From Gemmatimonadota bacterium (GTDB lineage Bacteria; JBHIER01; G020348925): a DNA stretch of 9,528 nucleotides. A model generated the notes under the pieces. It searched no databases. It saw only the letters and a list, made by a program, of their open reading frames with translations, and was not told where the DNA came from. Shown piece after piece: positions 4,880 to 9,073 of the stretch. The stretch covers positions 2,668,043 through 2,677,570 of the forward strand of contig CP070758.1 of assembly GCA_020348925.1 (NCBI GenBank), given 5' to 3'. Position numbers and translations under genes: made by a program. Each line of letters opens with the position of its first letter. Within the stretch, counting starts at the first letter, position 1.

Positions 4880-5590
4880 ATGAGAAGTATACCAAGTATC
4901 ACGCTGGTAATAATAATTACAGGATTTCTGCTTTTTTCAATTGCGATCCAGGACATTCAAGCCGAGGTTGGTGTGGGTGATCAAGCCCCGGAGTTTACAC
5001 TGACCGATCTCGACGGGAACACCGTTTCCCTGTCCGATTTTACCGGTCAGGTCGTCTTTCTCAACTTTTTGGGTTATGGTTGAGGGTTCTGTCGGGCGGT
5101 GGCACCGTCCATCGAACAGAACGTCTGGCGAGCTTATCAAAACAGGGAGTTTCAAGCCATAGGTATTGATCTGTGGAATGGTTCGATTCAACAGGTGAGA
5201 TCGCAATATCAACAACCGTACAATATTACATATCCAATTTTGATCAACGGTAGTCTGTTGGGTGAAACATATGGTGTTTCTCAGGACTATTATTTTATCG
5301 TTGACAAGGGAGGAATTGTCCAGTATCGATCCACCGGCGGCTTGGGTCAGCGTTATGATGAGGATACCGTTACTGACATCATTGAGGGACTGCTTGATGA
5401 TTGCAAGAAAGCTGATGTTGACCTGAACGGTGAGATAGACGTTCTGGACATTCTTCTGGCGGTCAATTTCATCCTCGAACAGACCGATCCGAATTCCACT
5501 CAATTTTGTGCGGCGGACTTCAACGATGACGGCAATATCGATATTCTCGATCTCTTGGGTATTGTTGGAGAAATTCTTGAAGGTCTGTAA
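4880..5590 (+). CDS. Secreted selenocysteine thioredoxin-fold (redoxin) protein fused to a dockerin; TGA at 5081-5083 read as Sec
   Basis: AAGGAGG (4868-4874) lies 5 nt before the ATG. Read through one TGA, the product has 236 residues: a signal peptide (about 1-28), a redoxin/thioredoxin fold (about 30-172) and a type I dockerin (about 176-236; loops DVDLNGEIDVLD and DFNDDGNIDILD). The fold begins GDQAPEFTLTDLDGNTVSLSDF, then VVFLNFLGYG, then TGA (residue 68), then GFC(71)RAVAPSIEQ. In homologues the TGA position is the N-terminal, nucleophilic cysteine of the CxxC active site, so the motif becomes U-G-F-C. The frame is otherwise intact on both sides and a long hairpin starts 3 nt after the TGA. 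Known selenoproteins commonly replace this kind of redox cysteine. The usual cis-proline loop is not evident: GVSQDYYFIVD stands where GxxxxP is typical. Likely a periplasmic or surface disulphide reductase or peroxidase-like enzyme. A standard caller would split it at 5083 and restart at GTG 5099, a codon without a ribosome site. Alternative: a nonsense mutation exactly at the active site. Confidence 0.8.
5086..5122 (+). promoter_or_regulatory. Bacterial SECIS-like hairpin
   Basis: GUUCUGU (5086-5092) pairs perfectly with ACAGAAC (5116-5122). An inner stem GGGCGGU (5094-5100) pairs with ACCGUCC (5104-5110), with one G-U pair, closing the loop GGC (5101-5103). C5093 can pair with G5114, leaving AUC (5111-5113) as an asymmetric bulge. 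The loop starts 18 nt after the TGA with G first, matching the bacterial SECIS description. With 13-14 pairs in 37 nt inside coding sequence, it is a much stronger structure than chance short stems. It would recruit SelB-GTP-tRNA-Sec. Confidence 0.7.
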
Positions 5591-8789: not shown

Positions 8790-9073
8790 AACTTTTCGTC
8801 TTGCCCAGAACTATTCCAATCCCTTTAATCCAACAACAGATATCAGATATCAGATATCAGATTGCAGATAGCAGATCTTCAGTTCATATCACCTTGAAAA
8901 TTTTCAATCTTCTTGGGCAGGAGGTGCGGACGCTGGTCAATGAGATACGGGAACCTGGTTACTATTCCGTGACGTGAGATGGTCGCGGTTATGCACTTGC
9001 CAGCAGTATCTATTTCTACCGCCTGAATGCTGAGGATTACTCTGTTACGAAACGTATGATCCTGATGAAATGA
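8773..9073 (+). pseudogene. Remnant of a FlgD-like sorting domain
   Basis: In frame 1, from about 8773, the DNA reads EIGTPETFRLAQNYSNPFNP then TTDIRYQISDCR and a TAG (8869). In frame 2, from about 8882, it reads VHITLKIFNLLGQEVRTLVNE, IREPGYYSVT, TGA (8975-8977), DGRGYALASSIYFYRL and ends KRMILMK-TGA at 9073. Compared with the intact domain ending at 3216, it aligns without gaps if one 7-bp repeat unit is removed, and the internal TGA replaces the conserved Trp of VTWDGR. With no promoter, ribosome site or N-terminal region, it is the decayed 3' tail of a lost secreted-protein gene. Its 5' edge overlaps the last codons of the ferredoxin gene. Confidence 0.8.
8839..8873 (+). repeat. Heptanucleotide tandem repeat (GATATCA-like, 5 units)
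   Basis: Units GATATCA, GATATCA, GATATCA, GATTGCA and GATAGCA lie head to tail, followed by a diverged GATCTTCA. Because 7 is not a multiple of 3, each gain or loss of a unit shifts the frame. Loss of exactly one unit would rejoin the two halves of the sorting-domain frame as DIRYQIADSRSSVHITLK, the same length as DIRYEIPGGRSSIHTVLK in the intact paralogue. Confidence 0.85.

Follow-up and report, generated by a model that had tools for sequence, protein, structure and literature searches.

Dockerins are docking tags of the kind that plug proteins into complexes on the outer surface. Selenocysteine (Sec)-containing TlpA-like and Prx-like thiol:disulfide oxidoreductases with a UxxC motif (PF00578, PF08534, cd02966) have been described in an inventory published in 2026 (PMC13188914), from which the word dockerin is absent. 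Here we analysed a window of 9,528 nucleotides from a Gemmatimonadota bacterium (contig CP070758.1, positions 2,668,043 to 2,677,570), which contains a gene for a putative Sec redoxin at 4880‒5590. Its product resembles the inventoried proteins in the redoxin fold, in the predicted Sec at the first position of UxxC, and in having widespread Cys homologues, and its catalytic part is already known in kind, as a Sec-containing TlpA/Prx-like redoxin (PMC13188914). Unlike those proteins, it carries a dockerin, has lost the cis-Pro, and is encoded in a trio with TlpA and DUF6029 genes. Like the ResA/TlpA redoxins (PDB 4nmu, 1st9), it is putatively exported and has a CxxC-type site, but Sec would take the place of Cys, a dockerin follows at the C-terminus, and the ResA cut-off is not reached. 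With cellulosomal dockerin enzymes it shares the C-terminal type I dockerin and a genome with many cohesin modules, whereas its product would be a selenium redox enzyme and not a glycoside hydrolase. In the open-access literature, we found no paper uniting dockerin, cellulosome, and thioredoxin domain, and no description of the Sec-redoxin/TlpA/DUF6029 trio. Nor did that literature yield a selenoprotein-dockerin fusion, of which an earlier note on this DNA had also known none.

We consider it highly probable that 4880‒5590 encodes an exported selenoprotein redoxin with a dockerin, most likely acting as an extracytoplasmic reductase together with TlpA and DUF6029. The basis is computational and consists of the reading frame, the Sec/Cys column of the homologues, the Sec machinery, the hairpin excess, the gene trio, and the cohesin-rich genome. 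The gene has the following features.

4868‒4874, forward strand: Shine-Dalgarno sequence AAGGAGG, read from the sequence, with the ATG five bases further on.
4880‒5590, forward strand: coding sequence of the candidate Sec-redoxin-dockerin, 236 residues with U68-x-x-C71, from profile matches and the homologue column.
4880‒4963, forward strand: putative signal peptide, residues 1‒28, from the hydrophobic N-terminal pattern, with predicted cleavage after IQA.
5081‒5083, forward strand: in-frame TGA, candidate Sec codon (U68), from the homologue column and the Sec machinery of the genome.
5411‒5557, forward strand: dockerin type I domain, residues 178‒226 (PF00404, 1.3e-8).

The earlier note had proposed one continuous frame with a strong Shine-Dalgarno sequence and a TGA at the first active-site position, which standard gene calling would hide as two fragments. 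The frame is indeed open apart from a lone TGA at 5081‒5083, where the predicted U68 opens the U-x-x-C active site, and standard calling splits the locus into 4838‒5083 and 5099‒5590. The C-terminal dockerin is also borne out, since Dockerin_1 scores 35.3 bits against a curated Pfam cut-off of 22.9. The suggested thioredoxin-like core stands in part: the product is a redoxin of the AhpC/TSA type (TlpA/ResA-like) by Pfam, with matches to AhpC-TSA on residues 32‒149 (PF00578, 7.9e-17; 61.8 bits against a cut-off of 26) and to Redoxin (4.6e-14), but it is not a classical thioredoxin. Among solved structures, ResA/TlpA redoxins such as 4nmu and 1st9 match the profile best (2e-28), and the ResA subfamily model NF002854 gives 70.8 against a cut-off of 170. 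The cis-Pro near the active site, present in most relatives, is absent (VSQDYYFIVD), which suggests that the substrate differs from that of TlpA and that the chemistry may differ as well. Single-sequence folding of the redoxin was uninformative (pLDDT 34), and an Rfam search of the whole window gave no matches.

We used the redoxin domain to query sampled genomes of other phyla and then 80 genomes from the phylum of the closest one, removing duplicates. In the 100 non-redundant homologues, the U68 column contains TGA (49), TGC (31), or TGT (20) and no other codon, which speaks against chance. The second active-site position has a Cys codon in all except one homologue, where it is TGA; homologue L139 (798) has TGA at both positions (U-x-x-U), and the latter TGA may be a genuine stop codon. 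Among the matches listed for the 80 genomes, 39 of 49 have an in-frame TGA. U68 and C71 are the only invariant columns across 48 Sec proteins. The tree places the window redoxin in a clade of 36 rows (support 100/97), 34 of them Sec. Within this clade, one strongly supported sister pair of the same family consists of a Sec form and a Cys form from different genomes. Throughout the tree the two forms are clustered yet mixed, and the supported branches force at least four label changes. Four further genomes that encode Sec forms have a tRNA-Sec above the cut-off, and the one tested genome with only a Cys form does not.

The genome of the window (5.04 Mb, a single contig, 96% complete) has the Sec machinery that the earlier note had proposed to look for: a tRNA-Sec whose anticodon is UCA (65.8 bits; cut-off 47), adjoining genes for SelA (520.8 bits) and SelB (396.5 bits), and selD (372 bits) near them. 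The selD gene (L025, reverse strand, start near 2390) has its own in-frame TGA at the catalytic position (CAG-U-ASK), which fits the UxxK motif known from the selenoprotein form of SelD (PMC13188914). A small four-helix gene, S23-like by eye, lies between selB and selD (L017, 982‒1356, reverse strand), and a TlpA-like redoxin gene and a dihydrolipoamide dehydrogenase-like gene stand on either side of the tRNA-Sec gene (L009, 392‒1438 and 1501‒1599, by eye).

If the TGA at 5081 were a real stop, an assembly error, or the mark of a pseudogene, with a second fragment from GTG 5099, exactly the two fragments given by standard ORF finding would result, and another in-frame TGA of the window, near 8976, does resemble a Trp codon that has decayed within the remains of a gene. 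However, such a break would cut through the active site, at a column where 48 other loci and nearly the whole clade described above also have TGA, and would be followed by sequence that stays conserved in frame, in a genome with complete Sec machinery. This explanation is very unlikely. The full frame that homology requires would also be obtained if a suppressor or an altered genetic code inserted Trp, Gly, or Cys at the UGA. This seems hardly credible, as TGA terminates other genes of the window (e.g., 755‒757 and 3214‒3216), no homologue has Trp or Gly in this column, and both SelB and the tRNA-Sec with its UCA anticodon are present. We rejected both explanations on the homologue column and the machinery of the genome.

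The Sec reading is further consistent with the RNA structure following the UGA, where the earlier note had anticipated a hairpin.

5086‒5122, forward strand: SECIS-like hairpin, core stem 5094‒5100/5104‒5110 and GGC loop 5101‒5103, from folding and covariation.

The core (5094‒5110) has a 7-bp stem, a GGC loop 18‒20 nt past the UGA, and a z-score of about -2.2 to -2.4. Over the same stretch, hairpins are stronger in Sec homologues than in Cys homologues (stem and z, p about 1e-5; MFE, p 4e-8), where the p-values count related sequences as independent. Compensatory pairs occur in 18 Sec sequences of one register, for example U-A, G-C, and C-G at +12/+26, and the hairpins of some Sec relatives are weak or badly placed. 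The hairpin is a candidate SECIS that may guide Sec insertion through putative binding of SelB.

All 48 Sec proteins contain AhpC-TSA by Pfam; FlgD_ig was found in 33, Por_Secre_tail in 10 (two counts that overlap), and a dockerin in two. The FlgD_ig and Por_Secre_tail domains are consistent with an exported location. The Sec relatives thus seem to share a plan in which an exported Sec redoxin ends in a surface or sorting domain, and the dockerin would be the local variant of it. Both dockerin-bearing proteins come from the genome of the window. The second gene (L008, 190‒1944, reverse strand; motif HSG-U-PTC), which goes beyond the earlier note, has a hairpin with the spacing, loop, and stem length of the window hairpin and a different stem sequence. 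Since its product falls into another supported clade of the tree, the two dockerin fusions look independent, and the two copies appear to be anciently diverged.

The genome gives more than 140 dockerin matches, among the matches listed, and 73 cohesin-family matches above the Pfam cut-off. These counts point to a large docking repertoire in one genome, with putative cohesin-dockerin pairing. A different role for the dockerin is unlikely, though a serious possibility: the product may be a true Sec redoxin whose dockerin is a Ca2+-stabilised C-terminal tag that replaces the sorting domain of its relatives and binds no cohesin. FlgD_ig and Por_Secre_tail occupy the same place in the relatives, dockerin-like domains are very numerous in the genome, and some dockerin genes, e.g., 1924‒3216, bear a sorting tail too, but the 73 cohesin-family matches speak for docking. 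We retain the docking dockerin as the preferred reading.

Downstream of the Sec-redoxin-dockerin gene lie genes for TlpA and then DUF6029, a trio that is also new relative to the earlier note.

5715‒6281, forward strand: TlpA-like redoxin with a WCKPC motif, partner gene (AhpC-TSA, 9.8e-26; conserved neighbour).
6292‒7851, forward strand: DUF6029 beta-barrel, partner gene (PF19494, 7.5e-19; conserved neighbour).
7780‒7797, forward strand: invariant Cys pair of DUF6029, C497/C502 (C-x4-C), in nine of nine module members and 30 of 30 DUF6029 loci.

The trio recurs, with varying gene order, in eight of 16 neighbourhoods examined from other lineages. The redoxin of these eight loci, which belong to another phylum, has the Sec form in seven and the Cys form in one. 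The C-x4-C near the C-terminus of DUF6029 is invariant in the nine module members and in all 30 loci sampled across phyla (L171‒L200). At 21 of these 30 loci, a CxxC redoxin gene lies beside DUF6029, in two cases (L181, L191) in the same reading frame. Since the last strand of such barrels runs inward, the Cys pair should sit on the outer side. Single-sequence folding of DUF6029 was uninformative (pLDDT 30). The sole mention of DUF6029 that we found in the open-access literature likens it to Wzi-type barrels (PMC9603273). Through its invariant Cys pair, DUF6029 may be a disulfide partner of the Sec redoxin.

In the favoured reading, the UGA at 5081 would be decoded as Sec by the SelA, SelB, SelD, and tRNA-Sec of the genome itself, with the hairpin past the codon as a guide. 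The signal peptide would then export the product, whose predicted fold is that of TlpA/ResA-like redoxins and whose active site, U68-x-x-C71, would form a selenenyl sulfide. Its dockerin should bind one of the many cohesin-type modules of the genome, beyond the cytoplasm and probably on the surface of the cell. There, the redoxin would most likely serve as a reductase of the thiol-disulfide (or peroxide) type, with a presumed substrate and direction of electron flow, and may exchange thiols with its operon partners, TlpA and, through the Cys pair, the DUF6029 barrel.

A further in-frame TGA, at 2272, had also not been part of the earlier note; it was examined because the hairpin there resembles that of the redoxin gene.

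1924‒3216, forward strand: second candidate selenoprotein gene, encoding a beta-propeller, a dockerin, and a FlgD/T9SS-type tail, from the in-frame TGA and paralogues.
2272‒2274, forward strand: in-frame TGA with the motif HCPGG-U; two paralogues (55% and 44% identity) have it too.
2286‒2302, forward strand: hairpin UACGGG-CGUGA-CCCGUA, with the loop starting at +18 past the UGA.

Both close paralogues (L202, L203) have HCPGG-U and the TGA at the same place, giving three genes in total. Since the TGA is kept in this way, the propeller gene is probably the second in the window to encode a dockerin selenoprotein. In one paralogue, the hairpin is GGCGGG-CGUGA-CCCGCC, which preserves the CGUGA loop and the spacing of the window gene and has two compensated stem pairs. 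The CGUGA loop is absent from remote relatives in the same genome, and the unconstrained minimum-energy fold of the window hairpin favours another pairing. No Cys homologue at the TGA column was seen within the genome of the window, the NCBIfam selenoprotein models did not match the gene, and no description of a propeller selenoprotein family was found in the open-access literature. We regard the beta-propeller-dockerin proteins as a likely new selenoprotein family. Scanning paralogues for conserved TGA codons over 1.65 Mb around dockerin genes of this genome gave 578 hits, many of them shadow-frame or stop-codon hits. The best 80 of the 578 were viewed, six of them in detail, and among these the redoxin and propeller families alone looked real.

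Taken together, these genes may belong to an extracellular selenium redox system, in which Sec redoxins and the new Sec beta-propeller class would be plugged by their dockerins into cohesin assemblies and linked by a thiol relay across the outer membrane, from TlpA in the periplasm through the DUF6029 Cys pair to the exported Sec redoxin. We regard this wider scheme as speculative and rather improbable as a whole. With surface-docked or sorted selenoproteins, selenium chemistry would take place outside the cell, at a site with no obvious supply of reductant, and one would have to ask how extracellular selenoproteins become reduced. An answer that can be tested directly comes from the conserved trio, with TlpA and with a Cys pair that all examined DUF6029 copies share; for DUF6029 itself, the trio is a first clue to function. 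Since gene callers split both the redoxin and the propeller genes, counts from uncultured phyla probably miss some proteins of this type. Elsewhere in the window, 8790‒9073 holds a remnant of a T9SS/FlgD-type tail in which TGA (near 8976) replaces a conserved Trp (VT*DGR); this codon looks decayed and not like Sec.
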